Assembly (NCBI RefSeq): GCF_024758005.1
Contig: NZ_CP103288.1
Span: 2,914,001-2,978,000, forward strand
Direction: 5' to 3'
Origin: Pseudarthrobacter sp. NS4
Lineage (GTDB): Bacteria > Actinomycetota > Actinomycetes > Actinomycetales > Micrococcaceae
Length of the DNA: 64,000 nucleotides
Part shown: piece after piece, positions 6,822 through 29,628 of the stretch
Layout: each line of letters opens with the position of its first letter
How positions within the stretch are numbered: the stretch's first letter is position 1
Program-made: the position numbers and the translations under genes
Notes under the pieces: model-generated
Databases searched by the model: none
What the model saw: the letters and a program-made list of their open reading frames with translations, nothing else
What the model was told of the DNA's origin: nothing

Positions 6822-6835
6822 CTTTTCTGAATGCG

Positions 6836-7162
6836 TCAGTGGTCTTGGTTCTGCGGCGGCAGTGCAGCGATCATCGGGTGGTCCTTGCCGGTATTACCGA
6901 TCTTGGCGGCACCACCGGGCGAACCGAGGTCGTCGAAGAACTCCACGTTGGCCTTGTAGTAGTCGGCCCATTCGTCGGGAGTGTCGTCCTCGTAGTAAAT
7001 CGCCTCGACCGGGCAGACCGGCTCGCAGGCACCGCAGTCGACACATTCGTCCGGATGGATGTACAGCGAACGCTCACCCTCATAGATGCAGTCGACGGGG
7101 CACTCCTCAATACATGCCTTGTCCTTGACATCTACACACGGCTGCGCGATTACGTACGTCAC
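6836..7162 (-). CDS. fdxA: 7Fe (3Fe-4S/4Fe-4S) ferredoxin
   Basis: 108 residues from a GTG start. A longer frame extends upstream, but the conserved ferredoxin begins at TYVIAQPCVD, so 7162 is chosen. The cysteine pattern CVDVKDKACIEEC-PVDC followed by CVDCGACEPVC-P is that of the seven-iron ferredoxins of mycobacteria and relatives (FdxC/FdxA), small cytoplasmic electron carriers for cytochromes P450 and other redox enzymes. The C-terminal 45 residues carry no further cysteines, as usual for the family. The fdxA-dapC order matches the arrangement I recall from Mycobacterium tuberculosis (Rv1177-Rv1178). Confidence 0.93.
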   Translation of the reverse strand: MTYVIAQPCVDVKDKACIEECPVDCIYEGERSLYIHPDECVDCGACEPVCPVEAIYYEDDTPDEWADYYKANVEFFDDLGSPGGAAKIGNTGKDHPMIAALPPQNQDH

Positions 7163-7297
7163 GTCCCTGGCCTCTCCACGTTGGTTCCGGCGACCGCCGG
7201 TTCTTGCATCCGGCAACTCTGGCCGGACCCTGACATCTGAGCCTATTATCTCCCAGCCCGTTCCCGCGAACCTAGCCGGGCCGCCTAGTATGAACTG

Positions 7298-7534
7298 GTG
7301 AGTCAGCCTCCCACGCCCGCCGCGTTTCTTTCCGCCGCCGCGCCCGGTACCCGTGTAGTGGTGCGCTACCGGCTCGAGGATGGACTGACGGATGCGCTTG
7401 GTCACCTGGTTTCGTGCGACGCCGGTGCCTGCACGGTCCGCACGCGGCAGGCCGACGTCGTCATTCCCCTTGAGCGCGTTGTGGCTGCCAAGCAGGTGCC
7501 GCCGGCGCCGGAGCGCCGCCGCCCTGCACACTAA
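7298..7534 (+). CDS. small SH3-like protein resembling the N-terminal domain of Rv0428c-type acetyltransferases
   Basis: 78 residues from a GTG start. The pattern G-x-RVVVRYRLEDG-x-TDALGHLV, then a short beta hairpin and a final VPLxxVVAAKQVPP stretch, resembles the small beta-barrel domain that precedes the GNAT domain in Rv0428c-like acetyltransferases. Here the domain stands alone and no GNAT domain follows. It is divergent from fdxA and convergent with typA. Function unknown; the family link is from memory of the motif pattern. Confidence 0.55.
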   Translation: MSQPPTPAAFLSAAAPGTRVVVRYRLEDGLTDALGHLVSCDAGACTVRTRQADVVIPLERVVAAKQVPPAPERRRPAH

Positions 7535-7580
7535 GGGTTGCCCTCAACGAGGCCCGTGCCCACCCGGGGGCAAAGAAAAA

Positions 7581-7619
7581 GCCGGGACGACGGCGGAAAA
7601 TCCCGCCTGCCGTCCCGGC
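7581..7619. terminator. hairpin terminator downstream of typA
   Basis: A long GC-rich stem with short internal bulges (outer arms GCCGGGACG and CGTCCCGGC) lies just after the typA stop and after the stop of the small convergent gene. It is preceded by an A-run on the plus strand (a U-run on the typA transcript), which fits a rho-independent terminator. Confidence 0.75.
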
Positions 7620-7647
7620 AGTTCCACTGACCCGAAGGCCGTTGTTG

Positions 7648-9576
7648 CTAGACCTTTGCGCGGGCCCGGTTGGCCTTGGCGCGCTCGTTGGTGTCCAGGA
7701 TGACCTTGCGGATGCGGATGGCTTCCGGGGTCACCTCGACGCACTCGTCCTCACGGGCGAATTCCAGGGACTCTTCGAGGGTCAAGTCGCGCGGCGGCGT
7801 CAGGTTCTCGAAGGTGTCGGAGGAGGCTGCACGCATGTTGGTGAGCTTCTTTTCCTTGGTGATGTTGACGTCCATGTCGTCGGCGCGGGAATTTTCGCCC
7901 ACGATCATGCCCTCGTAAACCTCGGACGTGGGCTTGACGAAGAACGAGCCGCGTTCCTGCAGGTTGATCATGGCGAACGGGGTCACCACACCGGCGCGGT
8001 CAGCGATCATCGAGCCGTTGGTCCGGTACTCGATGGGGCCGGCCCACGGCTCGTAGCCTTCGGAAATGGAAGCTGCAATGCCTGCACCGCGGGTATCCGT
8101 GAGGAACTTGGTGCGGAAACCGATCAGGCCACGGGCCGGAACGATGAACTCCATGCGGCACCAGCCGGTGCCGTGGTTGGCCATGTTGGTCATCCGGCCC
8201 TTACGCGCGGCCATGAGCTGCGTGACAGAACCGAGGTACTCCTCGGGGACGTCGATGGTCATGTGTTCCATCGGCTCGTGGATCTTGCCGTCGATGGTCC
8301 TGGTGACAACCTGCGGCTTGCCGACGGTCAGCTCGAAGCCTTCGCGGCGCATCTGCTCAACCAGGATGGCCAGCGCGAGCTCGCCACGGCCCTGGACTTC
8401 CCAGGCGTCGGGGCGCTCCGTGGGGAGGACTTTGATGGAGACGTTACCGATCAGTTCCTTGTCCAGGCGGTCCTTCACCTGGCGCGCGGTGACCTTGGCA
8501 CCCTTGACCTTGCCGGCCAGCGGAGACGTGTTGATACCGATGGTCATGGAGATCGCGGGATCGTCCACGGTGATCAGCGGCAGCGGCTGCGGGTTCTCGG
8601 CGTCAGTCAGGGTCTCACCGATGGTGATGTCCTCGATACCGGCAACAGCCACGATCTCACCGGGGCCGGCGGACTCGGCAGGCACGCGGTCCAGTGCCTT
8701 GGTGGCCAGGAGTTCGGTGATCTTGACGTTCTTGAGCTCACCGTTGGCGCGCGCCCAGGCAACGGTCTGGCCCTTGCGCAGGGTGCCGTTGTAGATACGC
8801 AGCAGGGCGAGGCGGCCCAGGAACGGGGAAGCATCCAGGTTGGTGACGTGTGCCTGCAGGACGCCGTTCGGGTTGTACGTGGGCGCGGGGATGTGCTCGA
8901 TGATGGTCTGGAACAGCGGTTCCAGGTTCTCGTTCTCCGGGGCGCTTCCGTCAGCAGGCTGCTCCAGGGAGGCGCGGCCTACCTTGGCTGCGGCGTAGAC
9001 GACGGGAACATTGAGGATCTTGTCCAGGTCCAGGTCGGGGACCTCGTCCGCAAGGTCCGAGGCGAGGCCGAGGAGGAGGTCCATGGATTCGTGGACAACT
9101 TCTTCAATGCGGGCGTCAGGGCGGTCGGTTTTGTTGACCAGCAGGATGACGGGCAGGTGCGCGGCCAGGGCCTTGCGCAGCACAAAACGGGTCTGCGGCA
9201 GCGGGCCCTCGGAAGCGTCAACCAGCAGCACAACGCCGTCCACCATGGACAGGCCGCGCTCCACTTCGCCACCGAAGTCGGCGTGGCCGGGGGTGTCGAT
9301 GACGTTGATGGTAATGGTCTCGCCGTTTGAGGACGGTCCGTTGTAGGCCACCGTGGTGTTCTTGGCAAGGATGGTGATGCCCTTTTCGCGCTCCAGGTCA
9401 CCCGAGTCCATCACGCGGTCTTCGAGGTGGTTGTGCTCGGCAAAGGAGTTGGTCTGCTTGAGCATGGCGTCGACCAGGGTGGTCTTGCCGTGGTCAACGT
9501 GGGCCACGATCGCGACGTTGCGGAGGTCACTGCGTGATGCAGTGGCTACCGCGGTGTTGGTGGTGGTTTCAGACAT
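7648..9576 (-). CDS. typA: ribosome-associated translational GTPase TypA/BipA
   Basis: 642 residues, within the usual 600-650. The GTPase motifs are clear: P-loop [10 protein letters not shown] at residues 25-34, G3 [10 protein letters not shown] and G4 [11 protein letters not shown]-like domains II, III and V follow, and the TypA-specific C-terminal domain (about residues 480-600) includes [15 protein letters not shown]. TypA binds 70S ribosomes and is needed under cold and other stresses. It is a single-gene unit with a hairpin terminator after it and a 270-bp upstream region. Confidence 0.96.
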
Positions 9577-18359: not shown

Positions 18360-18377
18360 TAGACGTTGAAGCGGAAC
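18360..18377. repeat. left attachment site (attL core)
   Basis: TAGACGTTGAAGCGGAAC, identical to 28544-28561. The preceding base is T here and C at the right copy, so the host ychF would have ended in TAA before insertion and ends in TAG now. Confidence 0.88.
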
Positions 18378-18520
18378 GTACCCTAGATACCCGCACAAGG
18401 TCGGCCGCCGTTGGTTTCATTGAATTTTAGCGGTTCTGGCAGTGGGCCAGTGTCGGACCGTTTCGCCTTGTTGCGGACCTCTTGCGGACTTTCTGCGGAC
18501 TGGAAGGCAAACTGGGCCGC

Positions 18521-18757
18521 ATGACTGAATGGATAGACTACCCGCACGCAAACTGCTGCCCGTGCCACACGACACGAAAGATTGCCTACAGCATCGAGGA
18601 AGCCGCAGCCAGAGTCGGAGTCAGTAGCCGTACGCTACGGGAACAGATAGCCGACAGCTACCTCATAGCACGGTACGTGGGGACGAAAGCCCTCATAGCG
18701 CACGAGGACCTGGTTACGTGGCTGAACAGCCTTCCGTCAGAGCCCAAGAGGAAATAG
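18521..18757 (+). CDS. helix-turn-helix DNA-binding protein, excisionase-like
   Basis: 78 residues from the ATG at 18521, which has GGAAGG about 13 bases upstream. Residues 20-70 form a MerR/excisionase-type winged helix: YSIEEAAARVGVSSRTLREQ, then a wing and the ALIAHEDLVTWLNSLP end that is typical of HTH_17 proteins. It lies next to attL and is convergent with the tail genes, an isolated position usual for late-acquired cargo or a second directionality factor. Whether it acts as excisionase, regulator or cargo is unknown. Confidence 0.65.
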   Translation: MTEWIDYPHANCCPCHTTRKIAYSIEEAAARVGVSSRTLREQIADSYLIARYVGTKALIAHEDLVTWLNSLPSEPKRK

Positions 18758-18832: not shown

Positions 18833-18858
18833 GCCCCGCCCTCCGAAGAGAGCGGGGC
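18833..18858. terminator. hairpin terminator after the tail operon
   Basis: A second hairpin with 7-bp arms GCCCCGC/GCGGGGC and a 12-base loop lies about 25 bases beyond the stop of the Asp-box tail gene; a run of A/T bases follows on the minus strand. It probably ends the leftward element transcript. Confidence 0.7.
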
Positions 18859-18884: not shown

Positions 18885-20540
18885 TTACGGTCCCCAGCCG
18901 TAGGTGACGAACGCGGTTCCTTCGGCAGGGTTAGCGCCTGACTGGTTGTAGATGACGAACTCCACGCCTTCATCTGAGTTGAGCGTGACCTTGGCCAGGT
19001 ACGGTTCCGTCTCAGCGAACAGGCTTTGCCGCTGCCTCTTATTGAAGGTGTCCACAGAGGCAATGGTGGTGCCGTCTTCGCGCCGGATCTTCACGCCGAG
19101 CGTTCCAGTGCCAGCCTTTTTCAGGACGCCGTAGTCGAAGATGTAGAGCGTCCGGTTGGTGGATGATCCGCGGGTGTGCCCGAACAGTTTGTTCTCGGTG
19201 ACTCCGAGGACGTGATAGCCACTGTTCTGCGTCTCCCAGGCGTAAGGCATGGCCCTGCGCTTCGTGACCGGCATGGGCGCGGTCCCGCGTGCGATCCGGC
19301 ACTTGTAGTAGGCGTAGTCAAAGTTCGTGCTGATGCCGAACGTTGTGAGCCAGAACGTATCACCGTGGATCTCAGCCTGACCCACGGGTGCTAGGGCGGC
19401 GTTGATGGTGGCCTCGGTAGGGTAGGCGGCGATCTCGTAGATGGTCGCACCCTGATCTTCCACGGCGTATAGGTGGACTGCCTTGTCGAGGTTCACGCCG
19501 GCTGTCGGCTCCTGAGAGGCCGAGCAGACCCAGCGTGTGCCGTCGCTGCTGGCCTTCGCCGTGAACCAGCCGGTCGAGTTGAACCTGTAGACCCGCTCCA
19601 CAACCGGGGCCGCAATGCCGATCTGGTTACGGTGCATCCTCATCAGGTACGGGTTGGATGATGCGTCACCGGTCCAGGCGATGTAGTCCGGGAACCACAT
19701 CATGCCGATGGAGCGGGCCGCGTCCGGCGAGCCGGTCTGCGCTTCCACCTGCTCATTCAGCACTACAGGTTCCACGCCTGTCTTGGCGGCGTTGGTCCGG
19801 TAAATGCCAGCTTTCGGGCGGGTGTCCCCCAGCATGAAGTACACGCGCTGGGAAACGCTGTCGTACTGGCAGGAGTGCATGTGGTCGATCCGGTTGGGAT
19901 CGGTCGTGCCGCCGCCCGGGAAGGTCGCGAACGTCGCCCATGTCAGCCCGTCGTCCGTGGAGCGGTAGATCATCACGTCCACGCTGTTGGCGGGGCTAAT
20001 GTACTCCACGTAGTACAGGTGCCCGTTCGCCGCGTCCTGGCACCACGACTGGACGCCCATGAGCCGGGTTGCGGCGCGGAGGGTGTGAACAACCGTCCAC
20101 GTCAGGCCGTCGTCAGTGGAGCGCACAATCTTGGTAGGGCTCTCCAAGGAGTGCGTCAGCAGTGTGCCAGCGGTGGTCTTCAGGAACGCTCCCGATGAGC
20201 CACCAAGGCCCGCGGCGTGCCGTCCAAGCCGCGTCCACGTCATGCCGCCGTCCGTGCTCTTACGGAACGTGTTGTCAAAGCCCACAGCGTAGAGCGTCTG
20301 CCCGTTCGCTTCGGTCCAGAGGATACGGAAGTCAGCTGTTGGGTTGGGCAGCGAGTCGAGCACCGTGAGCGTCGGAACACGAACGGGCTTGAGGAACTGC
20401 CCGCCGTTGTCCAGTTTCTTCACGCCGGCATAAGTGGCAGTAAGTGCCTTTGCCGTCTCGCTCTCGGGGTCTTTGATTTTGGTGGTGGTCAGGGCGTCAA
20501 GCAGGTGCGGCAAAACAGGCTTCGGATCAAGAAATCCCAT
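18885..20540 (-). CDS. Asp-box (sialidase-like beta-propeller) phage tail/receptor-binding protein
   Basis: 551 residues. Three Asp-box motifs S-x-D-x-G-x-T-W occur at residues 95-102, 141-148 and 194-201, with regular beta-rich spacing, which indicates a BNR/sialidase-like beta-propeller. The catalytic Arg triad of true sialidases was not identified, so a carbohydrate-binding or tail-tip role is more likely than hydrolysis. The first 60 residues are helical and may attach to the tail. It lies directly after the tape measure gene, the usual place for minor tail proteins. Surface glycan recognition is inferred. Confidence 0.7.
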   Translation of the reverse strand: MGFLDPKPVLPHLLDALTTTKIKDPESETAKALTATYAGVKKLDNGGQFLKPVRVPTLTVLDSLPNPTADFRILWTEANGQTLYAVGFDNTFRKSTDGGMTWTRLGRHAAGLGGSSGAFLKTTAGTLLTHSLESPTKIVRSTDDGLTWTVVHTLRAATRLMGVQSWCQDAANGHLYYVEYISPANSVDVMIYRSTDDGLTWATFATFPGGGTTDPNRIDHMHSCQYDSVSQRVYFMLGDTRPKAGIYRTNAAKTGVEPVVLNEQVEAQTGSPDAARSIGMMWFPDYIAWTGDASSNPYLMRMHRNQIGIAAPVVERVYRFNSTGWFTAKASSDGTRWVCSASQEPTAGVNLDKAVHLYAVEDQGATIYEIAAYPTEATINAALAPVGQAEIHGDTFWLTTFGISTNFDYAYYKCRIARGTAPMPVTKRRAMPYAWETQNSGYHVLGVTENKLFGHTRGSSTNRTLYIFDYGVLKKAGTGTLGVKIRREDGTTIASVDTFNKRQRQSLFAETEPYLAKVTLNSDEGVEFVIYNQSGANPAEGTAFVTYGWGP

Positions 20541-20592
20541 GATTGTTCTTCTCTTTCAGTAGGGTGCTGATTTCGTTATTGAGCATTTGGGG

Positions 20593-22389
20593 TTAGGTGC
20601 CCAGCGCCGCGAGTCGGCGCGTTACGGCGTGCGCTGTTGAAATGGGGTCGTCAACCTGGATGCTGAAGTTGTTCACCATCCCGGATCCCCCAGCCGCACC
20701 AATCGCGCCTACAGGGGTGAATGAGCCGGTACTGAACGCCGGCACCGAGGGGACAGAAACCAGCCCAGTAACCGAATCGGCTACCTTCGCGTGCATCCCG
20801 TCAATACCGAGAATCAAACCCTGACCAATGTTCACGCCATACTCACGGAACACACGGGACGGGGAACGGATGCCTAGCAGGTCCTCAAACGGGCCACGGA
20901 TCGCCTCGGGAACAATATTCAGGACCGCACGGCCAATGGAACCCATCATGGAGCCGATACCGTTGATGAGCCCTTGGATGATGTTCACGCCCACGCTGAA
21001 CAGTGCGGATCCGGCGTTACCAATCGCCCCGGTGATGCGCCCGATCAGGCCAGAGAAGAACCCAACAACGTTACCGATCATGGAGGACACGCCATTGACC
21101 ACGTTGTTCCACGTATCAGCGAAAAACCGGCCAATATTGCCAAGAATCGAACCGACAAAGCCGGCCGCGTTGGAGAGTCCCGCACGAATCACAGTTCCCA
21201 CGACGCCGATGACACCTGACACGATGGCCTGAATGTTATTCCAGATGCCGCCGAAAATGTTTTGGATGCCGCTCCAGACCTGCGACCAGTTCCCGGAAAT
21301 GGCGCCCGTCGCAACCTGAATCACGCCCTGGATGACCTGCATCACTCCGGCAACCAAACTGCCAATGGTATTGAACACGATGTCAACCACCGGCAAGAGG
21401 TTCTGCACCGTGGGAGTCAATACCGAGATGAGCTGATCAATAAACGGCCCCACCGCGGCCACAAGGCCATGGAACGCCTCCCCCACCCTTGCAGCCACCG
21501 GCTGGAACGCGGCAAAAGCACCACCAAGCCCGCCGCCGCCGATCCCAGACGTGAGCGACGAAACCCACGGCAGGACGTTGGTATTGATGAACGATGAAAC
21601 CTCAGTGATGATCGGCAGGAACGCCGTACCAAGCTGGGTTTGAATGTTCTCCCACGTCGCCGCCATGCGCTGCTGCTGACCGGCGAGCGTCCCAGACTCC
21701 TTAGCGAAATTGCCGTGAGCGTCCGCCGTCTGATCCATGATCAGCGCCATAGTTGCCGCCTGGTTAGCCTCAGCCGACAGTGCCCCGCCTACCTTGGAAA
21801 AACCGAGCTCAGCAGCCTTGGCATCAATCGCAGCCTGATTCAGGGATACGCCGTAAGCCTCCAGAGGGTCCCGCTCACCCTTCAGCGCCGACGATAGTGC
21901 CTCGACAGCCTGCGAGGTATCCCCGCCGAACATAGACGCAAGATCGGCGCCCAGGGTGACCATCTCGTTAGTCTTCCCCGCGAGCTCATCCATCGGCACG
22001 CCGGCATTCTTGAGCTGGGAACCAAGGACAGTGCCAAGCTTGTTGTACTCATCCTGGGTTAGGCCAACGGTCGTTGCCGCCGTCTTGGAAAAACCGAGCA
22101 TGTCCGCGGCCGCGGTCTTGAATACAGAGCCGATGGCTCCGCTGCTCTGCTCAAGCTCCCCAGCCTTACCGATCGCGTCTTTGAGGACATCCCCAGTCTT
22201 GAGAGCGATGCCCGCGATTGCAGCCGGCCCAACCATCTTCCCCAGACCGGCAAGGAAAGTCCCGCCAACCTGCTTCCCGGCGTCCGAGCCGACCCCGCCA
22301 ACATCCCCGAAAGCCTCTTTGATCTTTCCGCTAATCTTCGAGGTTTCGGGAATGATCGAGATGTACGCGGCCCCTAATTCAGTTGCCAT
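20593..22389 (-). CDS. phage tail tape measure protein
   Basis: 598 residues. The N-terminal half carries the tape-measure domain (AYISIIPETSKISGKIKEAF start, then AAGIALKTG and the GSQLKNAGVPMDELAGKT segment), followed by several long hydrophobic Ala/Gly/Val helices (about residues 260-480) and the typical end EDLLGIRSPSRVFREYG. Tape measure proteins set tail length and are pierced through the membrane at infection. At roughly 600 residues it would specify a short siphovirus tail. The presence of this gene without any head gene is the main oddity of the element. Confidence 0.88.
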   Translation of the reverse strand: MATELGAAYISIIPETSKISGKIKEAFGDVGGVGSDAGKQVGGTFLAGLGKMVGPAAIAGIALKTGDVLKDAIGKAGELEQSSGAIGSVFKTAAADMLGFSKTAATTVGLTQDEYNKLGTVLGSQLKNAGVPMDELAGKTNEMVTLGADLASMFGGDTSQAVEALSSALKGERDPLEAYGVSLNQAAIDAKAAELGFSKVGGALSAEANQAATMALIMDQTADAHGNFAKESGTLAGQQQRMAATWENIQTQLGTAFLPIITEVSSFINTNVLPWVSSLTSGIGGGGLGGAFAAFQPVAARVGEAFHGLVAAVGPFIDQLISVLTPTVQNLLPVVDIVFNTIGSLVAGVMQVIQGVIQVATGAISGNWSQVWSGIQNIFGGIWNNIQAIVSGVIGVVGTVIRAGLSNAAGFVGSILGNIGRFFADTWNNVVNGVSSMIGNVVGFFSGLIGRITGAIGNAGSALFSVGVNIIQGLINGIGSMMGSIGRAVLNIVPEAIRGPFEDLLGIRSPSRVFREYGVNIGQGLILGIDGMHAKVADSVTGLVSVPSVPAFSTGSFTPVGAIGAAGGSGMVNNFSIQVDDPISTAHAVTRRLAALGT

Positions 22390-22391
22390 GT

Positions 22392-22685
22392 CTAGCCCTT
22401 CCTTTCATTGCCTGGCTGATCCGTCGTCCAGCGCGCCGGATCCATATCCAGATCGTGCAAATTCATCCGCAGCTCGGCATTCCATGTCTGCGGGTAAGCA
22501 GACTTGAAAGCGCTAGCTGCTGCCCCGGTCAGAGCCACAATGACGCTCGCGGGCAGCTTCTTGTTCCGGCTACGGCCAATCTCGTCATCGATGCGCCGAA
22601 ACTCGGCCATGTCATCCTCGGCCATCGCCAGGATCATGCGCAGCGCATACGCTGCTGCGACCTCCTGTGTTGTTTTTCCTGCCAT
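22392..22685 (-). CDS. small protein upstream of tape measure, possibly tail assembly chaperone
   Basis: 97 residues from the ATG at 22685, preferred over an upstream ATG at 22718 because AAAGGAGC sits seven to eight bases before it. The stop is two bases from the tape measure start. Charged, mostly helical, without recognisable motif. The position immediately before a tape measure gene is where tail assembly chaperones are normally encoded, but no slippery frameshift sequence was recognised and the identification rests on position only. Confidence 0.5.
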   Translation of the reverse strand: MAGKTTQEVAAAYALRMILAMAEDDMAEFRRIDDEIGRSRNKKLPASVIVALTGAAASAFKSAYPQTWNAELRMNLHDLDMDPARWTTDQPGNERKG

Positions 22686-22711
22686 GTCTTTGCTCCTTTT
22701 CGTTGATGTGT

Positions 22712-23041
22712 TCACCATTTGCGGCTAGTCCTTAGCGGCCCCGGATCCGGCTTAGGTCTGGGGTTCTTACTCCCGTCGCCCTTCGCTGAGTTACAGCCGC
22801 GATGCATGCCCTGAAGACCTGCCAGGCCCGGCGCCATCCTGCCGCCAAGGTTCACGGCCTCGATATGATCGGCGGTGAAGCTCCGGGCGTCCTTCCAAAA
22901 ATCCGGGTACCGCTTCCGGTCCTCCATGTCCCACAAAAAAGGGCCACCGCATGCCACGCACGCTAGGCCCTGTGCCTGATACCTCCGCTTCAGCGCCTCC
23001 CGCTGGGCCACATAGCGCCTGTCATTCCTGTACGTCTTCAC
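22712..23041 (-). CDS. HNH homing-type endonuclease
   Basis: 109 residues from a GTG start at 23041; a much longer frame upstream reads through two other genes and is rejected. A zinc-binding CVACG pair, the central FTADHIEAVNLGG (DH of the first catalytic block) and MHRGCNSAKGDG (HxxCN-K) give the H-N-H metal finger. Phage HNH proteins of this size next to terminase genes often work with terminase at cos sites. Its start overlaps the end of the preceding small gene by four bases. Confidence 0.85.
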   Translation of the reverse strand: MKTYRNDRRYVAQREALKRRYQAQGLACVACGGPFLWDMEDRKRYPDFWKDARSFTADHIEAVNLGGRMAPGLAGLQGMHRGCNSAKGDGSKNPRPKPDPGPLRTSRKW

Positions 23042-23241
23042 AGCGGCCCCACCGCCCGATAGAACGCTTCCCGCGTCTCCCTGAAGAACGCCGCGAATCC
23101 GACCTGCCCCGCGGGCCAGGAATGCTGACGTGCCCACTCGAACCGAGCCAGCTTCCACCGCACAGGATCCGGACCTGCCTGATCCAGCCAAAGATGCCGG
23201 GGCAACTCCAGCGCCACGCCCTGCCGCTTCCGCCTCACCAT
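23038..23241 (-). CDS. small phage protein of unknown function, 67 aa
   Basis: Starts with an ATG that overlaps the previous stop by one base (TGATG) and ends overlapping the HNH start by four, both signs of translational coupling in a real operon. Rich in Trp/Arg/Phe (EWARQHSWPAGQVGFAAF). No domain recognised. Confidence 0.6.
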   Translation of the reverse strand: MVRRKRQGVALELPRHLWLDQAGPDPVRWKLARFEWARQHSWPAGQVGFAAFFRETREAFYRAVGPL

Positions 23242-23489
23242 CAGATTTCCACCTCATCCCACGGCTGATCCGGGGGCAGGTTCGCTCCCAAGTCAGACGG
23301 CAAATCCTCCACCCCGTCCGGCAGGTTCGCCTCAGCCCACGCACACCGCGCCTCATCCCACGCCGCCCACCGCTGATAATCCGAACCGCCCGGCCAATCA
23401 GCAAGAATGAACGTCAGAACGCTCTCCGGGATCTTCGCGCCGTTGACAATCACCTCGCGCTGACGGCGCCTAACCACGAGCCCGCCCAT
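23241..23489 (-). CDS. small phage protein of unknown function, 82 aa
   Basis: The frame is open further upstream, but the ATG at 23489 is the first start that leaves only a 20-base overlap with the small-terminase-like gene. The C-terminal half is acidic and Trp/Pro-rich (WDEARCAWAEANLPDGVE). Coupled by one base to the next gene. No family recognised; the exact start is uncertain. Confidence 0.55.
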   Translation of the reverse strand: MGGLVVRRRQREVIVNGAKIPESVLTFILADWPGGSDYQRWAAWDEARCAWAEANLPDGVEDLPSDLGANLPPDQPWDEVEI

Positions 23490-23799
23490 ATACACCACGC
23501 ACGCCACGCGCCAGCGGCAAATCATCATCCAAACCGGGAATCTGCAACGACGCCAACAACCGCGCCAGCGTGAGCCGCTGCTGCCGGGCCTCACCAACCG
23601 CCGGATGCAACCTCAAGCCCTGCGAACTGGTGATCATCAGCCCATCAACCTTCACAGCGGAGTCAAGCTCCACGATCCGGTCCCGAACACGGCACGCTTC
23701 CTCCAACAGGGCAAGCTCATGCTCAGCCCATTCAAACTCTGCCGTGGCAACTTCCCACAGCTTCTTGCCAGCGGCCTTCAAACCTCTGGGACTAGCCAT
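23470..23799 (-). CDS. small terminase subunit-like protein
   Basis: 109 residues from the ATG at 23799, with GAAAGG nine bases upstream. The pattern GLKAAGKKLWEVATAEFEW, then ELALLEEACRVRDRI and the end GEARQQRLTLARLLASL matches the short P27-type small terminase subunits annotated in actinobacterial phages, which bind DNA and recruit the large terminase. No large terminase gene follows; the next genes are small unknowns and an HNH nuclease. The family assignment is from motif memory. Confidence 0.6.
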   Translation of the reverse strand: MASPRGLKAAGKKLWEVATAEFEWAEHELALLEEACRVRDRIVELDSAVKVDGLMITSSQGLRLHPAVGEARQQRLTLARLLASLQIPGLDDDLPLARGVRGVYGRARG

Positions 23800-23844
23800 A
23801 ATCAACCTTTCAAGGGCCTAACGTTTCGGGTTCAGGGAGAGAAA

Positions 23845-23963
23845 CTGTGCCAATGCCGGAGGAGGCACAGGATCGGGGGTGGCCGGGGGGTGTGCCCACC
23901 CACCGGCAGGCAGAGGGGCCGGGCGGGGCGGTGATGACCCGCTGCCCTGCTCCCCTGCCTGCC
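23845..23963. repeat. paired inverted repeats upstream of the small-terminase-like gene
   Basis: Two hairpins occupy most of the 188-bp gap between the 289-aa gene and the terminase-like gene: CTGTGCC/GGCACAG (23845-23851 and 23864-23870) and GGCAGGCAGAGGGG/CCCCTGCCTGCC (23905-23918 and 23952-23963, one bulge). They could be a terminator, or a packaging (cos/pac) site, which often lies just before the small terminase gene. Confidence 0.5.
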
Positions 23964-23987
23964 GTGGTTGTCATTTGCTCTGTGCCC

Positions 23988-24857
23988 TCAGATACCTACG
24001 TAGTCGCCCACGAAGGGCTTGGTGCGTGCGGTGTTCATTGATGGCGCGAGCTGGTCGGCGGTGGCGCCGCCGCGGTGGTGCTGGTCTTCCGGGTCTATCT
24101 CAACGGGGCGGTGCATGCCGCGTCCTACCTGTTCGTACCGGGTTTCGATGGGTGCGGGTCGGCGGTAGTGCTTGTACTCGTCGAGGTCTGAAGCTTCGAT
24201 GGTGGCGCCGAGGGTGATGAGTGCGCCCCACTTTCCTGCCCGGCCGGTGGCGTTCTCCCATGCTTCCCAGACGCGGCGGCGGTGGAGGGCGCCGGGGTTG
24301 ACGGTGAGCGGGAGGGTGCCGTCTGCGCCTTGGATGGTGAGGCCGGCGAGGCGTGCGGCTTCGGTGAGGTTGGGGACCTGGCTGGTCAGGGCCGCGGCGA
24401 GGGCGGGCGCGTGCGCCCATGCGCTGCGCTGTTCGTCGGTCCCTGACATGAGGTGTTCGGGTGCGGTTTCGATGTCCACTGCCTGCATGGCTTCGGTGAG
24501 GGTTTGCGCGGTGGTGTTGAACTTGGCGGCGAGTGCCTCATAGTTCGCCGCGGCGGTCTTGGCGTATTCGTTCCGCAGTGCCGGGTACACCTCATCGGCA
24601 ACAGCGTTCATGACGGTTGCCCGGTCTACGTGGTTGGCAAGTTCCGCGAGGGTCAGCGCGTTCAGTTCCGCGATACGCTCCGGGGTTTCTTTTCCGAGGA
24701 TGGCGGCGGTGAGTTGCTGCTGTGCGGTGCTGGCCTGGTTGGCGTAGTCGTTCCAGCGGGTGAGGATCCGGTCGTATTCCTTGGTGGTTTTCCCGCCCGC
24801 GTTGGTGACGGTGGCGATGCTTGCGGTGAGCGTGTGCAGGGATTCGATGATGGTCAT
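23988..24857 (-). CDS. hypothetical phage-element protein, 289 aa
   Basis: 289 residues, ATG start two bases after the stop of the small gene before it. Predominantly helical and Ala/Thr-rich with likely coiled-coil segments between residues 20 and 130. The C-terminal 80 residues are charged and His/Arg-rich (RGMHRPVEIDPEDQHHRGG). No signal, membrane segment or catalytic motif. I do not recognise it. It is one of the largest genes of the element and sits between replication-type and packaging-type genes, so a structural or scaffold-like role cannot be excluded. Confidence 0.6.
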   Translation of the reverse strand: MTIIESLHTLTASIATVTNAGGKTTKEYDRILTRWNDYANQASTAQQQLTAAILGKETPERIAELNALTLAELANHVDRATVMNAVADEVYPALRNEYAKTAAANYEALAAKFNTTAQTLTEAMQAVDIETAPEHLMSGTDEQRSAWAHAPALAAALTSQVPNLTEAARLAGLTIQGADGTLPLTVNPGALHRRRVWEAWENATGRAGKWGALITLGATIEASDLDEYKHYRRPAPIETRYEQVGRGMHRPVEIDPEDQHHRGGATADQLAPSMNTARTKPFVGDYVGI

Positions 24858-24859
24858 TT

Positions 24860-25009
24860 TCAGTTCTCCAAAGCGTTGTAGATGAGTGCGGTGAGTGAGT
24901 TGTCGTCATTGAGGGCTAGGGGCGCGTCTTGTTCGTCGGCCTGGTATTCGGTGGGTTGAGCGTCGGGGAGGCCGAGTGCGGCTCTCAGGGAGGATTCGAG
25001 GTCTGACAT
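24860..25009 (-). CDS. small phage-element protein, 49 aa
   Basis: A 49-residue frame from ATG (MSDLESSLRAALGLPDAQ...) ending NALEN, acidic. Its stop lies two bases before the next gene start, and it fills the space between two other genes, which supports a real coding region despite its size. GGAGC-type ribosome-binding sequence lies upstream of the ATG. Function unknown. Confidence 0.5.
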   Translation of the reverse strand: MSDLESSLRAALGLPDAQPTEYQADEQDAPLALNDDNSLTALIYNALEN

Positions 25010-25020
25010 GGTGCGCTCCT

Positions 25021-25227
25021 TTAGGCGGTGGGGATGGTGAAGGTGTAACCGGCGATTCGTTCGTCGCCGGTGCGTTGGAGTCCGCAGCCGGGGGCGCGGT
25101 GGAATGTAGTGCCGGGGTTACTGGGGACGGCTCCGTTTTCGTGCCGGTGCACGCCGTTGCAGTAGGGGCAGCGGACTTTGATGTATTTGCCGTTGACTTG
25201 CAGGACGCCGGCTGTTGGGGTGGTCAT
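25021..25227 (-). CDS. small zinc-ribbon-like protein, 68 aa
   Basis: 68 residues with CPYC-x2-HRH near residues 20-26 and a further Cys at about 48 (APGCGL), which could form a metal-binding knuckle. Compact gene spacing: three bases after the preceding stop and 11 before the next start. No known family recognised; DNA or protein binding would be a guess. Confidence 0.55.
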   Translation of the reverse strand: MTTPTAGVLQVNGKYIKVRCPYCNGVHRHENGAVPSNPGTTFHRAPGCGLQRTGDERIAGYTFTIPTA

Positions 25228-25230
25228 GGT

Positions 25231-25401
25231 CTATTCCTGTTCGTTGGTTGGTTCGTCGCCTGGCTCGTAGATGGCGAGGCGGCTTTCTGCTTCTATGGCT
25301 CGTGCTTGCCAGTGCCTAAACAGGTCGTGCTCTTCTAGAGCTTTGGCTTTGTAGATTTCGCAGAGGTCTATGAGGTCTTGGCGTGAGAGCGAAGCGCTCA
25401 T
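25231..25401 (-). CDS. small phage-element protein, 56 aa
   Basis: ATG at 25401 overlaps the stop of the replication-type gene by four bases (ATGA), the reason for choosing it over an earlier in-frame ATG. Helical, charged (SRQDLIDLCEIYKAKALEEH). Unknown function. Confidence 0.55.
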   Translation of the reverse strand: MSASLSRQDLIDLCEIYKAKALEEHDLFRHWQARAIEAESRLAIYEPGDEPTNEQE

Positions 25402-26015
25402 GATGCCGCCTGCCCGCTCAACCACGCGCAGTCATCACAGCAATCTCGGCCTGCGTCCAGTGCTCGCTGATTCAACCTCCCGTTGCAGCCAGGAGTTGAG
25501 CAATCAGGGAAAGAACGAAGAGGCCTTGAAGAATGGCTGGGCGCGGGGCGAATTTCTTCTGAAGCTTTTCTTTCTTGAGGAACTGCTTTAGTACTTAGCC
25601 TTTCCTCTGCCTCTGCCTCTTCCTCTTCCTTTCCTTCAACCGTCACGTGACTGTCACGTGACGGTTGGTTATCTACGGGCTTGTCCTGCTCGCGCTTCCT
25701 GCGCTGACGGGTTCGGTCGGCCTCTCTGCGGTTCTCCAAGGCTGCTTCCAACTTCGCCGCGGAGGTCTGGATCTTGAGGAAGTCGCTTATCACCCATCCG
25801 TCAGGGGCGGGCGCCCAGAGGCCTTGCTGCACCAACATGTCTGGCCCTGACTCATCTGCAAAGGGAATGAGGTAGAGGTCTTCTCGGGTCACGGCCCCGT
25901 CTGTCATGTTGGAGACGGCCCACGCGTTAGCCAGGACAAAGAGCCGGAAATGCTCTGGCGGCAGCCTAAGCACCCGCCTGTCGTTCAGGTAGTAAGTGGG
26001 AAACCGTGAATCCAT
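25398..26015 (-). CDS. replication-type phage protein (winged-helix-like N-terminus)
   Basis: 205 residues. Residues 1-80 (RLPPEHFRLFVLANAWAVSN, then TREDLYLI and a GLWAPAPDGWVISDF wing-like end) resemble the N-terminal winged helix of phage replication initiators. Residues 90-150 are strongly charged, including a Glu/Ala run (EGKEEEEAEAEERL). The last 40 residues contain five Cys (CSTPGCNGR, CCDDC) that could bind zinc. The gene contains a 31-bp palindrome next to a homopurine tract, an arrangement reminiscent of origins located inside phage initiator genes. Initiator function is inferred. Confidence 0.5.
   Translation of the reverse strand: MDSRFPTYYLNDRRVLRLPPEHFRLFVLANAWAVSNMTDGAVTREDLYLIPFADESGPDMLVQQGLWAPAPDGWVISDFLKIQTSAAKLEAALENRREADRTRQRRKREQDKPVDNQPSRDSHVTVEGKEEEEAEAEERLSTKAVPQERKASEEIRPAPSHSSRPLRSFPDCSTPGCNGRLNQRALDAGRDCCDDCAWLSGQAAS
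25637..25667. repeat. 31-bp palindrome inside the replication-type gene
   Basis: Perfect 14-bp arms (CAACCGTCACGTGA and its complement) around CTG, each arm containing CACGTG. About 40 bases of almost pure pyrimidine (plus strand) lie directly to its left. Such symmetry inside coding sequence is unusual and is a candidate replication origin or operator. Confidence 0.6.
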
Positions 26016-26372
26016 TTAGACCTCCGGGGCCTCGTGGGCAGCAACGGCTTGCACTGCCGCGGTTAGGTCGGCGGCGAACCGGAGCGCTTCGGCCGGCGAC
26101 AGCACTGCGTAGTCCGGCGCCTCGTGCTCAGCCATCCACACTTCGATGGAGTGCTTTTGAGTCCTGTAGTCCCAGGTCGGCGTGATGATGTAACCGCGGG
26201 CAATCGTCTCGGTTCCGATCCAACGGCTTTCCGACTTGGGGGCCAGAGTGTAGCCGGCGGGTGGCATTGGGATGGGGCCGAGGACCTCCAGCAGCCTCGG
26301 CAGCGTCATACCCAACTCGATGGCCGTTTCCGCGAACTCTCGAAACGTGGCCGGGTACTTGGTAGTGTTCAT
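26016..26372 (-). CDS. hypothetical phage-element protein, 118 aa
   Basis: 118 residues, its stop abutting the next start without a gap (26016/26015). Residues 5-35 are helical; the centre is beta-rich with Trp/Tyr (GYIITPTWDYRTQKHSIEVW), then a helical Ala-rich end. No family recognised. Codon use and tight spacing support a real early gene of the element. Confidence 0.6.
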   Translation of the reverse strand: MNTTKYPATFREFAETAIELGMTLPRLLEVLGPIPMPPAGYTLAPKSESRWIGTETIARGYIITPTWDYRTQKHSIEVWMAEHEAPDYAVLSPAEALRFAADLTAAVQAVAAHEAPEV

Positions 26373-26382
26373 GATGAATCTC

Positions 26383-26625
26383 CTAGGAATTGGTGGGTTC
26401 TGAGACCGTGACGGACTTTGGCGAGGCGTCGCGGTCTTTCTCTGTCTTCAGGGCGACCTTGCAGGCCTTAGCCGGTGTCGTTCCCCGTGCCTCGTCCGTG
26501 GGCTGCCGATATGGGTTCTTAGCGTCTACTACTGCGCTGTTCAGCGGTCCCTCGTGGCTGGTGCCGTTCCAGTAGCCGGATTCCCAGGCTGCGGCGAGGT
26601 CGGCTTCTGAGTAGGTGCGGCCCAT
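26383..26625 (-). CDS. hypothetical phage-element protein, 80 aa
   Basis: 80 residues starting MGRTYSEADLAAAWESGYWNG, overlapping the upstream excisionase-like stop by one base. The N-terminal 25 residues are helical, the rest is polar and probably disordered. No domain recognised. Confidence 0.55.
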   Translation of the reverse strand: MGRTYSEADLAAAWESGYWNGTSHEGPLNSAVVDAKNPYRQPTDEARGTTPAKACKVALKTEKDRDASPKSVTVSEPTNS

Positions 26626-26816
26626 CAGGACGCTTCCTCGAACGCGGCGTTTATGTAGTCCTCAACATCGGAGGCCCTGAACATCCGGCGCCCGCCGATC
26701 TTGGCCGACTTTGGCGCGGTTCCTGCGTGGATCATCCAGCGGAGCTGTGCCTCAGACTTGCGCAGCCGTTCGGCAGTTTCCGCCAGCGTGAGCAGCGTTG
26801 CGATTGCTAGTGCCAT
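26625..26816 (-). CDS. excisionase-like helix-turn-helix protein
   Basis: 63 residues: TLAETAERLRKSEAQLRWMI helix pair, then a short wing and GGRRMFRASDVEDYINAAF, the standard HTH_17 excisionase layout. It is the first gene of the leftward operon, divergent from the repressor and close to the integrase, where a recombination directionality factor is expected. Confidence 0.7.
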   Translation of the reverse strand: MALAIATLLTLAETAERLRKSEAQLRWMIHAGTAPKSAKIGGRRMFRASDVEDYINAAFEEAS

Positions 26817-26912: not shown

Positions 26913-26931
26913 TTATTCGCATGGAGAATAA
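26913..26931. promoter_or_regulatory. candidate operator over the repressor start
   Basis: TTATTC-N7-GAATAA is a perfect inverted repeat that covers the repressor ATG at 26921 and is nested in a wider one (AGCTCTT at 26893, AAGAGCT at 26931). No ribosome-binding sequence precedes the ATG; TAGTCT about 8 bases before it could be a -10 box, so the repressor mRNA may be leaderless. Confidence 0.35.
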
Positions 26932-27430
26932 AGAGCTCAGTGTCGGCGACGTGGCCAGACGCACCTTTGGTGAATCAGTGAGAAAGTACCGCTTGGCAAA
27001 CGAGTGGACGCAGGACACCCTTGCGCGGAACGTCACGAAAAATGGCGTCAATGCTACTCAGACAATGATTGCGAAGATTGAGCGGGGCGACCGGCCCACT
27101 TCCATCAGTGAGGCAGCCGTGATCGCCGCTACTTTTGGCATCCCCGTGCAGGCTCTCTTGCCGCTCGATAGAGAATCTGCCACTCAGTCCCAGCTAGGCG
27201 TCCTTCTATCGAACTTCAATAGCCAACTTGCGCGGCTTGCGATGTTCAGGGCCCAGGCGCTGAACATGGAGGATGCTCTGGAGGACACCCTCAATGAGTG
27301 GGATGAATACGTAAGGGACTTGACGCCATCAGAGCGGGATCATCTTGCGGCGGTAGATATTGATGCCCGCCCCAGCTCCGAGAACGGAATGAGGGATAAG
27401 CTTCGTGGCGAGCATTCAAAAGCGAGATAA
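26921..27430 (+). CDS. XRE-family phage repressor-like regulator
   Basis: 169 residues from the ATG at 26921. Residues 12-75 form a lambda-repressor-type helix-turn-helix (VRKYRLANEWTQDTLARNV and TQTMIAKIERGDRPTSISE), followed by a helical C-terminal region without a LexA-type peptidase. It probably controls the divergent early operon. It overlaps the integrase start by 26 bases, so the two are co-transcribed. The lack of a protease domain suggests induction is not by classical RecA-stimulated self-cleavage. Confidence 0.75.
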   Translation: MENKELSVGDVARRTFGESVRKYRLANEWTQDTLARNVTKNGVNATQTMIAKIERGDRPTSISEAAVIAATFGIPVQALLPLDRESATQSQLGVLLSNFNSQLARLAMFRAQALNMEDALEDTLNEWDEYVRDLTPSERDHLAAVDIDARPSSENGMRDKLRGEHSKAR

Positions 27431-28505
27431 CGGCTCTTGGCGCGCACGGTACCGCGACGACGCGGGCAAGGAGCACGCCAGGCACTTCCCCCGGAAGATA
27501 GACGCTCAGCGGTGGCTTGATGAGGTCACAACTTCTGTCGTTACCGGCTCTTATGTGGATCCGAAGTCTGGCAAGGTAACGCTCAACTCATTCTTTGCGG
27601 ACTGGTCACAGCGACAGATCTGGGCAGCCGGCACGGCTAAGGCCATGAGCTTGGCCGTGCGCTCGTGCACGTTCGGTGACGTGGAGTTCCGCAACCTCAA
27701 GCGCTCCCACGTTGAGGCGTGGGTAAAAAAGATGACCGTTGACGGCTTGGCGCCAGGAACGGTGAAGACCCGATACAACAACGTCCGCTCAGTGCTGCGC
27801 GGAGCCAGGAATGACAGGATGCTTGCCACGGATCCGGCGGACGGCGTTGCGCTGCCCCGCGGCCGGAAGGCTGAGCACGCAATGGCTATCCCTTCCCCAG
27901 AGGACGTGGGCAAGCTGTTGGCCGCTGCTGAGGTTCAGTTTCGCCCGTTCGTGGCTATGTGCGCTTTCGCTGGGCTGCGGCTCGGTGAGGCTGCGGCGGT
28001 GCAACTCACTGACATTGACTTCCTGCGACGCACTCTGAAGGTTCAGCGGCAGATACAGCGGGCAGGCAAGGGGGAAGTTGCCATCACTCCCCCGAAGTAC
28101 GGTTCAGAGAGGCTTGTGCACATCCCTGACGGGCTGGTGCAGATCCTCGCCCAACACGTCGAGCACATAGGCGTGCATAGCGTCCATCAATGGCTGTTCA
28201 TCGGTGATGGCGGGCTGCCTCCGCACCAGAACACGACGGGCTACTGGTGGCGGAAGACAGTGAAGGCTGCGGGGCTCTCAGACGTGCGCTTGCATGACCT
28301 CCGGCACTTCTACGCCTCGGGGCTAATTGCGGCCGGCTGTGACGTTGTGACGGTCCAGAGAGCGCTAGGTCATGCCAAGGCAACCACGACGCTGAACACG
28401 TATTCGCACTTGTGGCCGACAGCAGAAGACCGCACAAGGTCAGCAGCCGGAGCCATGATGGAAGAAGCTCTCCGGATTCCTGCGGACTCTGTGCGGACTG
28501 GCTGA
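27405..28505 (+). CDS. tyrosine recombinase integrase
   Basis: 366 residues from GTG. An arm-type N-terminus (RDNGSWRARYRDDAGKEHAR), a core-binding domain (about 60-140) and a catalytic domain follow. Catalytic residues are present in order: Arg192 (AGLRLGE), His297 and Arg300 (HDLRH), His323 (ALGHA) and Tyr333 (NTYSHL). It is oriented towards the attachment site, which begins 38 bases after its stop, the usual geometry. It probably catalyses insertion into the ychF 3' end. Confidence 0.95.
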   Translation: MASIQKRDNGSWRARYRDDAGKEHARHFPRKIDAQRWLDEVTTSVVTGSYVDPKSGKVTLNSFFADWSQRQIWAAGTAKAMSLAVRSCTFGDVEFRNLKRSHVEAWVKKMTVDGLAPGTVKTRYNNVRSVLRGARNDRMLATDPADGVALPRGRKAEHAMAIPSPEDVGKLLAAAEVQFRPFVAMCAFAGLRLGEAAAVQLTDIDFLRRTLKVQRQIQRAGKGEVAITPPKYGSERLVHIPDGLVQILAQHVEHIGVHSVHQWLFIGDGGLPPHQNTTGYWWRKTVKAAGLSDVRLHDLRHFYASGLIAAGCDVVTVQRALGHAKATTTLNTYSHLWPTAEDRTRSAAGAMMEEALRIPADSVRTG

Positions 28506-28542: not shown

Positions 28543-29628
28543 CTAGACGTTGAAGCGGAACTCCACCACGTCGCCGTCCGCCATGACGTATTCCTTACCC
28601 TCAATCCGAACTTTACCGCGGGACTTGGCTTCAGCCATGGAACCGGCATCGACGAGATCGTCAAATGACACCACCTCGGCCTTGATGAAGCCGCGCTGGA
28701 AGTCCGAGTGGATGACTCCGGCGGCCTGGGGAGCTGTGTCACCCCGGTGGATGGTCCACGCGCGGGCTTCCTTGGGCCCTGCGGTGAGGTATGTCTGCAG
28801 GCCGAGGGTGTGGAAGCCCACGCGGGCCAGCTGGTCCAGCCCGGACTCGTCCTGTCCGTTCATCTCCAGCATCTCGCGGGCTTCTTCCTCGTCCAGTTCC
28901 ACGAGGTCGGATTCGAGCTTGGCGTCGAGGAAGATGCAGTCCGCCGGGGCAACCATGGCCCGCAGTTCTTCCTGCTTTTCTGGGCTGCCCAGGATTGCTT
29001 CGTCCGCGTTGAACACGTAGATGAAGGGCTTGGCCGTGAGCAGGCTGAGCTCCTTGAGGTGCTCCATCTCCAGCTTGTCGCCCTTGATGGAGGAGTAGAT
29101 GGTGTCACCGCGTTCCAGCACCGCCTGGGCAGCCTTGATGGCTGCAAGCTCGGCGGCCTCCCGCTTCTTGATCTTGACCTCTTTTTCGATCCGGGGAATG
29201 GCCTTTTCGATGGTCTGCAGGTCGGCGAGGATCAGCTCGGTGTTGATGGTTTCCATGTCCGAGCGGGGGTCGACCTTGCCGTCAACGTGGATGACGTCGG
29301 GGTCATCGAACACGCGCACCACTTCGGCGATGGCTTCGGCTTCCCGGATATTGGCCAGGAACTGGTTGCCCAGCCCTTCCCCTTCCGATGCGCCCTTGAC
29401 GATGCCGGCGATGTCCACGAAGGAGACAGCGGCCGGCAGCACCCGCTGCGACCCGAAGATTCCGGCCAGCTTGTCCAGCCGGGGGTCGGGCAGGTTCACG
29501 ACGCCGACGTTCGGTTCGATGGTGGCGAACGGATAGTTCGCTGCCAGGACCTGGTTGCGGGTGAGCGCGTTGAAGAGAGTTGATTTGCCGACGTTGGGCA
29601 GTCCGACGATGCCAATAGTAAGAGCCAC
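28543..29628 (-). CDS. ychF: ribosome-binding ATPase YchF (Obg family)
   Basis: 361 residues from the GTG at 29628 ([16 protein letters not shown]), preferred over an ATG two codons earlier by comparison with the family N-terminus. The P-loop GLPNVGKST is at residues 9-17; the NxxE change that makes YchF an ATPase is part of the family (NADEAI in the G4 position). A coiled-coil insertion and a C-terminal TGS domain follow, ending FRFNV as in YchF generally. The 3' end is the attachment site of the element on its left, and the coding sequence is restored intact at the junction. Confidence 0.95.
28544..28561. repeat. right attachment site (attR core)
   Basis: Second copy of TAGACGTTGAAGCGGAAC; on the minus strand it encodes the last codons of ychF (FRFNV). 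The C at 28543 completes the TAG stop and comes from the element. Confidence 0.88.

Follow-up and report, generated by a model that had tools for sequence, protein, structure and literature searches.

A 64,000-nucleotide stretch of the Pseudarthrobacter sp. NS4 genome (contig NZ_CP103288.1, positions 2,914,001 to 2,978,000; hereafter the window) contains an integrated element of 10,184 bp that carries phage tail genes without detected head genes. The element lies at the 3' end of ychF, where its ends are exact, and combines a small terminase (TerS) and an HNH endonuclease with a tape measure protein (TMP) and a fibre-type protein. Tail-carrying elements recur in 18 other genomes of the genus, and a like packaging-to-TMP junction is present in a second strain. 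We consider it probable that the element is a phage satellite that would use its own TerS and HNH endonuclease for packaging into the heads of a helper phage, and we predict that it builds chimeric tails with its own TMP and fibre.

The ychF element and its gene order

The element is delimited by 18-bp direct repeats (TAGACGTTGAAGCGGAAC) at 18360-18377 and 28544-28561, one copy of which forms the 3' end of ychF, in a host genome that consists of one contig of 4.44 Mb. A repressor-like gene and an integrase, which we take from family knowledge to be of the tyrosine type, occupy the right end on the plus strand. The remaining genes lie mostly on the minus strand in the order excisionase-like (xis-like) helix-turn-helix (HTH) protein, small genes, replication initiation protein (Rep), g289, a G+C-rich gap, TerS, g82, g67, HNH, g108, TMP, a 551-aa protein and a terminator-like hairpin. 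Satellite features found in the element are its own integrase with direct repeats, its own replication gene (Rep) and its own regulation genes (repressor- and excisionase-like). Starts are closely coupled along the minus strand: g82 and TerS overlap by 20 bp, g67 and g82 by 1 bp, HNH and g67 by 4 bp (given an HNH start at the GTG at 23041) and g108 and HNH by 7 bp, while a gap of 2 bp separates TMP from g108. An earlier sequence-only reading had described tail genes without head genes in a 10.2-kb element and a tight operon with coupled starts where head genes would be expected. Both descriptions hold: the size is exactly 10,184 bp, TerS, HNH and TMP are identified by profile, no head gene was detected, and the gaps or overlaps measure 1-20 bp. 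The features are as follows (L and G numbers here and below denote loci and genomes used for comparison; ORF, open reading frame).

18360-18377: attL, 18-bp direct repeat (copy of the ychF 3' end)
18470-18501: TGCGGAC(T/C) repeat cluster near the left end, likely integrase/excisionase arm sites; counterparts at 28480-28499
18521-18757 (+): 78-aa excisionase-like HTH protein (phrog_66 / phrog_1840)
18833-18858 (-): terminator-like hairpin of 11 pairs after the late operon, a consensus match only (1 of 16 found, 8.7 expected)
18885-20540 (-): 551-aa tail fibre or receptor-binding-type protein with an N-terminal anchor of ~45 aa and a beta-rich BNR-type domain (weak BNR matches)
20593-22389 (-): 598-aa TMP (phrog_305, E 1e-47)
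22392-22718 (-): g108, 108 aa; 40% relative in the L105 replication region
22712-23041 (-): HNH endonuclease, GTG start at 23041 (phrog_338, E 1.5e-14; 75% to the L069 and L104 HNH)
23038-23241 (-): g67, 67 aa; relatives behind TerS in L104, L105 and L106
23241-23489 (-): g82, 82 aa; relatives behind TerS in L081, L104, L105 and L108
23470-23799 (-): small terminase TerS, P27 type, 109 aa (phrog_1496, E 8e-19; Pfam Terminase_4 at 23.1 bits, just below the 24.7 cut-off)
23800-23987: G+C-rich non-coding gap between g289 and TerS, candidate cos site by position and composition
23988-24857 (-): g289, 289-aa mostly helical protein
24860-25009 (-): 49-aa ORF
25021-25227 (-): 68-aa ORF
25231-25401 (-): g56, 56 aa; relatives in several sister elements
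25398-26015 (-): 205-aa replication initiation protein (phrog_2447, E 8e-18)
26016-26372 (-): g118, 118 aa; relatives in L106 and L110
26383-26625 (-): g80, 80 aa; relatives in L106 and L110
26625-26816 (-): 63-aa excisionase-like HTH protein (phrog_66)
26921-27430 (+): 169-aa repressor-like HTH regulator (PHROG scan)
27405-28505 (+): 366-aa integrase (phrog_1, E 1e-60)
28544-28561: attR, 18-bp direct repeat inside the ychF 3' end

No large terminase (TerL), portal, capsid, tail tube, chaperone or lysis gene was detected in the element by Pfam and PHROG scans and by tblastn with genes of six phages. Ten element proteins were scanned with both libraries and the repressor, the integrase and the two xis-like proteins with PHROG only; the 49-, 68-, 56- and 80-aa ORFs were left out. 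For the ten proteins the scans yielded TMP, TerS, HNH, Rep and the weak BNR matches, with TerS alone being head-related; the TMP matched many TMP families and, in addition, one labelled endolysin (phrog_971). The tblastn queries comprised head and tail genes of VResidence, BaileyBlu, Preamble, Ashes, Pitbull and LuckyBarnes together with some viral-contig genes; the six-phage head and tail genes matched only the TMP in the window. From the gene set of capsid-forming phage-inducible chromosomal islands (PICIs), namely capsid, portal, protease, connectors and both terminase subunits, only TerS was detected in the window.

The 289-aa protein had been named in the sequence-only reading as a possible capsid or portal protein. 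Its predicted structure (mean pLDDT 90 from 40 sequences) is mostly helical with a C-terminal hairpin, Foldseek searches of PDB and BFVD returned no match at E<=0.001, and VIA-align gave middling Z scores (best 5.7) to unrelated helical proteins. The confident helical model and the lack of a Foldseek match suggest that g289 does not resemble an HK97-fold capsid or portal protein. The gene lies next to TerS, and a role in capsid-size redirection is conceivable; on this point too the model offers a mostly helical fold without a structural match. It has 39 protein relatives; it was found in three Arthrobacter genomes among genome contigs and in none of the viral contigs, and its distant relative P0033 has no match among 50,697 phage records. 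Weak matches at the family or order level (G293, G492, G517, G115 and G543) were not accepted as relatives; the G293 locus (L045) was read and contains no element, and G115 was recovered again through TerS. Among the best 120 TMPs, only one besides the window's own comes from a contig equal in length to that of a g289 relative (P0085 with P0012, 3.2 Mb), a co-occurrence that is uninformative. The slot before TerS often holds a 200-290-aa protein of differing kind: in the window (23988-24857), L069 (12692-13309), L070 (12500-13123), L072 (11362-11985), L076 (6214-7005), L105 (12602-13240), L109 (9283-9924) and L110 (9983-10630). These include g289, a 263-aa protein in L076 with no BLAST match to g289, a 207-aa family and proteins of ~212 aa that look alike by eye; a common function in packaging or in setting capsid size is conjecture.

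Short TGCGGAC-type repeats occur near both ends of the window element and also at both ends of L024, L044, L078 and L081. They are likely integrase arm sites common to elements in different attachment genes, among them presumably glnA and yajQ. An Rfam scan gave no match and a sigma-70-type promoter scan no promoter. Matches of the candidate cos gap to phages were short (E about 9) and not meaningful.

Recurrence of tail-carrying elements in the genus

Three markers were followed through 206 genomes of the genus, the window's own included: g289 was found in four, the integrase (at E<=1e-60) in 23, and TerS in 11, with 12 matches. We read 28 loci, comprising the window, five located by g289 (three within the genus and two, L043 and L044, at order level), 13 by the integrase and nine by TerS. 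A 2.6-kb fragment (L079), the integrase matches in G023, G028, G051, G071 and G092 and the second TerS match of G138 were left unread. Nineteen of these 28 loci have tail genes (window, L024, L025, L026, L069-L072, L076, L078, L081 and L104-L111), and every one of the 19 comes from a separate genome of the genus, which places tail-carrying elements in 19 of 206 genomes, none with a detected portal or capsid gene.

The tail cargo differs among these elements. TMPs occur in ten, with lengths of 598 aa in the window, 604 in L026, 755 in L069, 1006 in L070, 1004 in L076, 1097 in L078, 1032 in L081, 625 in L105, 990 in L109 and 977 in L110. Fibres are carried by L104 (phrog_11419, E 4e-64) and L106 (phrog_15641, E 3e-60), tail protein and spike families by L024 (best E 7e-10), and minor tail proteins by L025 (phrog_5413, E 9e-63) and L072 (phrog_1885, E 2e-35). 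Minor tail genes in L070, L071, L072, L107 and L111 were recognized by similarity to a viral-contig gene located after its TMP, and the L108 tail gene by BLAST to L025 alone (E 4e-18). Direct-repeat ends were found in 13 loci (window, L024, L044, L069-L072, L076, L078, L081, L105, L106 and L110); element membership in the remaining loci, L025 and L108 among them, is assigned by gene content. Elements with ends found are mostly 9.6-16.3 kb long. The L072 element reaches 19.2 kb including an insertion, and a two-gene insertion-sequence-like pair of 517 and 262 aa (6197-8535), presumably IS21-like, lies inside it behind the minor tail genes.

PHROG scans of 70 proteins, not every ORF, across the window and its relatives gave head or packaging family matches above a weak level for TerS genes and one TerL, that of L107. 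Six-phage tblastn found nothing matching portal, capsid, protease, connector, tube or chaperone genes in relatives (20, 15 and nine regions in overlapping sets, the 20-region set with four of the six phages), and its sole head or packaging match there was again the L107 TerL. A lysin/TMP-query match at L108 2777-3214 falls in an apparently chromosomal gene outside the element.

Tail genes accompany TerS in nearly all of the 11 TerS loci read: a TMP follows in five, another five have a fibre or minor tail gene (L108 by BLAST only) and one has no tail gene. TerL was not detected in the window or in nine of the ten other TerS loci, L107 being the exception. The second strain with a like junction is G153, in which the 9,843-bp element L105, bounded by a 24-bp repeat at a different site from that of the window, has TerS (80%), g82 (55%), g67 (46%) and HNH (34%) followed directly by a 625-aa TMP. 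The order matches that in the window with one difference: the g108 relative (40%) is located in the replication region. TerS (85%), g82, g67 and HNH (75%) also stand together in L104, where the cargo is a fibre, and in L081 (13,254 bp, 38-bp repeat) TerS (80%) and g82 (57%) precede a TMP of a different lineage. These shared runs indicate that the packaging genes travel together, with tail genes in different elements. The satellite explanation, which the sequence-only reading had regarded as unusual, gains support from the 18 other genomes with tail genes and no detected capsid or portal, and from the like TerS-to-TMP junctions in L105 and L081. The repeated identical composition that this reading named as support for a satellite is seen for the TerS-g82-g67-HNH-TMP order in L105; it does not extend to g108, which lies elsewhere there, or to the cargo, which varies between elements.

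Another small-terminase type, with 90-94% mutual identity, is present in L024, L070 and L076. The L024 and L070 proteins match phrog_226, a family labelled minor tail by PHROGs; phage relatives of this protein lie near record starts, and one is annotated as terminase small subunit. The ratio of nonsynonymous to synonymous substitution rates (omega) for TerS between L024 and L070 is 0.09. A similar stem-loop with a T-run lies directly before the tail cassette in L024 (9184), L072 (5625), L076 (7768) and L081 (10203), and a like stem-loop before the scaffold gene of phage VResidence (L083 6210); it may be a late-gene control element.

Defence models are matched in or beside sister elements at L069 9266-10024, L075 2869-11635, L074 14622-16133 and L085 18032-18883 (PDC-S45, MzaC and TmtA, type I methyltransferase and Tmn); the L085 match flanks the L072 element, immediately beyond its left repeat. 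At the ychF site, proteins of 684 aa (L080 15172-17226) and 672 aa (L085 15091-17109) look alike. The former occupies most of a 4.7-kb remnant element, and the latter has no PADLOC match.

Tail genes, proposed mechanism and rival explanations

The window TMP has matches in 1,040 phage records and none in a search of genome contigs; within the window's genome, the element itself is the only TMP match. The protein aligns with its homologues across its whole length and, with 55-63% identity to phages or phage contigs and 61% to the L069 TMP, is the shortest of 120 listed homologues (median 772; best 120 of 1,382). Alignment of ten phage or metagenome homologues places the difference at one central place, where seven have 131-142 extra residues and three have 62-83; a second alignment divides the 134 extra residues of homologue P0043 between two insertions, one following residue 293 and one following residue 305. 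Other short TMPs are those of L026 and L105. Tail length scales with the TMP at about 0.15 nm per residue, and by this rule the absence from the window TMP of ~134 central residues that most aligned homologues have predicts a tail about 20 nm shorter, given a helper TMP of the long type.

The 551-aa protein, labelled tail-tip-like in the sequence-only reading, is better described as a tail fibre or receptor-binding protein. Its model is beta-rich (pLDDT 89, with most of the first 52 residues poorly modelled), and in Foldseek it comes closest to sortilin, sialidases and other propellers (E 2.6e-10, with low TM-scores). The first 42 aa match the 543-aa protein of L069 with a score of 56, against a best of 28 in 2,000 shuffles; the L069 protein is otherwise different, with a C-terminal domain unlike the window's. 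Relatives of the 551-aa protein number 54 at E<=1e-62 plus nine weak ones, and none was found in viral contigs or phage records, though protein relatives exist. Relatives of the window's domain are joined to other N-termini; the sixteen that were inspected differ from one another, several appearing fibre-like by eye. Phage fibres usually vary by a common anchor with exchanged receptor domains, and the sequence comparison suggests the same arrangement here. The minor tail genes of the three sister elements L070, L071 and L072 are under purifying selection, with omega of 0.07-0.11 between them (dS, the synonymous divergence, is above 1, so the values are approximate).

In the satellite mechanism that we propose, a siphophage would infect from outside and lift repression, after which the element would excise and replicate by its own initiator. 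TerS and HNH would redirect the helper TerL to a putative cos site before TerS, within 23800-23987, and the helper would supply capsid, tube and connectors. The satellite TMP would then replace that of the helper, giving the predicted shorter tail, and the satellite fibre may replace or join the helper fibre and change adsorption. A wider proposal, which we advance tentatively at a little short of an even chance, is that a tail cassette of exchangeable content (a ruler, a minor tail protein or a receptor-binding fibre) sits beside a packaging module (TerS-g82-g67-HNH in the window's branch), and that re-measured and re-targeted tails let the satellite enter cells that the helper cannot. Such elements would mirror capsid-forming PICIs and represent a second independent origin of chimeric-tail satellites.

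Several results weigh against these interpretations. Nine of the 28 loci have no tail gene (L043, L044, L073, L074, L075, L077, L080, L082 and L112), and relatives were located through markers common with the window, which makes the sample not neutral. The window's genome has no match to phrog_2 (TerL) or phrog_12 (presumably portal) in a search that did not include other TerL families such as phrog_9, and for this reason the helper is presumably external; in 11 other satellite genomes no phrog_2 or phrog_12 match falls inside an element. In control tblastn searches, queries from other phages recovered TerL in five of six phages, portal in four, major capsid protein in four and tail chaperone in two; some lineages thus escape the head-gene test, which could overlook a highly divergent head gene. 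Weak PHROG hits with head or connector labels occur in tail-type proteins of L070 and L071 (phrog_697, E 1e-5 and 8e-7), in the L024 spike (E 7e-5 and 1e-4) and in L025 (E 3e-5). TerS matches the phage family profile phrog_1496, and distant phage relatives therefore exist. In L107 (9400-13588), TerS, HNH and TerL (phrog_9, E 3e-71; 47% to the BaileyBlu TerL) stand with a minor tail gene beside a recombinase-like gene, and neither portal nor capsid was detected; at least one member of the family thus has a packaging-motor gene. A general shortening of TMPs in these elements was rejected, since the L069 TMP (755 aa) shows no shortening and the Pitbull-type TMPs (977-1097 aa) have lengths similar to that of Pitbull itself (988).

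The strongest rival, which we consider unlikely, is that TMP and fibre poison or decoy helper tail assembly and are not built into satellite particles. Proteins that prevent tails or virions from assembling have been described (PLE11 Rta, Tai and a blocker encoded by a prophage), and a protein of sister element L069 matches a defence model; nevertheless, the genes carried are complete structural genes, in many cases for a TMP or for a fibre whose receptor domain differs, a decoy has no need of a varied receptor domain, and the PLE TMP is incorporated and required for efficient transfer. It is more improbable still that the tail genes are passengers, acquired when elements recombined with the late regions of helpers and serving no function since. 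Repeated capture would fit the differing TMP and fibre types and a window TMP about equally close to phages or phage contigs and to L069, but the frames are open, the approximate omega values for minor tail genes of three elements are low, similar stem-loops precede the tail cassette in four elements, and the capsid or portal genes that random capture might equally have brought in were not detected alongside. Least probable, by a small step, is a defective prophage, derived from a small siphophage by a single deletion that removed the head genes between HNH/g108 and TMP: the phage origin of the TMP, the TerS family profile and the TerS-HNH-TerL run kept in L107 favour it, but the recurrence in 18 other genomes of tail genes with no capsid or portal detected, the variety of insertion sites and TMP lineages among them, the joint occurrence of TerS, g82, g67 and HNH in L104 and L105 without detected head genes, and the absence of an intact relative among the loci read argue against it. 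TerS, g289 and g108 have no tblastn match among the 50,697 phage records, which also counts against the deletion of ~5 kb from a 15-kb Arthrobacter phage envisaged in the sequence-only reading; an intact prophage with the same junction, which would have favoured that origin, was not present among the loci read.

Comparison with known satellites

An integrase with a divergent regulator is the familiar layout of Staphylococcus aureus pathogenicity island (SaPI)-type PICIs. The elements described here share this layout. They also resemble PICIs with terS in size, own replication gene and a TerS that redirects packaging (PMC10690885); they differ in that TMP and fibre genes are absent from that description, and in that no capsid-size gene is recognised in the elements here. 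Capsid-forming PICIs likewise encode part of the virion and leave the rest to the helper, but they are described as encoding head and packaging genes and taking tails (PMC10690885), whereas the elements here encode tail parts with no detected capsid or portal. The Streptomyces satellites MulchRoom and MiniFlayer are also actinobacterial, and MiniFlayer has its own tail fibre; unlike the elements here, both are described as encoding terminase, portal and capsid, without recognised primases (PMC10690885). It has been noted that small actinobacterial prophage elements could be satellites (PMC10023795). A literature search limited to open-licence papers found no Arthrobacter satellite with tail genes.

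The closest parallel is with the PICI-like elements (PLEs) of Vibrio cholerae. Well characterised dsDNA satellites hijack phage tails, and PLEs are reported as the first family that rebuilds them; in PLE virions, the satellite TMP, shorter by 95 residues, and the BhuB hub replace those of the phage ICP1, the tails lose 10 nm in length, and transfer drops when tmp is deleted (Nature 2026, PMC12987554). Putative tmp genes are also indicated in PLE-like elements and a sampling of capsid-forming PICIs (PMC12987554, Extended Data Fig. 10 legend). PLEs (PLE1, PLE4 and PLE11) are described as integrated satellites with their own TMP and other tail parts that use phage capsid proteins, an arrangement like that proposed for the window element. 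The differences are that the V. cholerae host belongs to another phylum and the helper ICP1 is contractile-tailed, whereas the TMPs here are of siphovirus type. PLE11 encodes a tail assembly chaperone (TAC) and BhuB near its TMP and is reported to take tail fibres from ICP1. In the elements here, TerS, often with HNH, is instead paired with a TMP, minor tail protein or fibre. These elements look like a lineage other than PLE, set apart by host phylum, TerS/HNH module and TMP type, in a comparison of mechanism only, not of sequence.

Given a second lineage in 19 of 206 genomes of one genus, with fibres bearing different receptor domains on a common anchor, tail remodelling seems to be more widespread among satellites, and whether a satellite's host range differs from that of its helper becomes a testable question. 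Small "remnant prophages" that have retained nothing but tail genes may in fact be functional satellites. PLE is the one direct precedent for the mechanism; what is new is an actinobacterial headless lineage and fibres that appear to have exchanged receptor domains.

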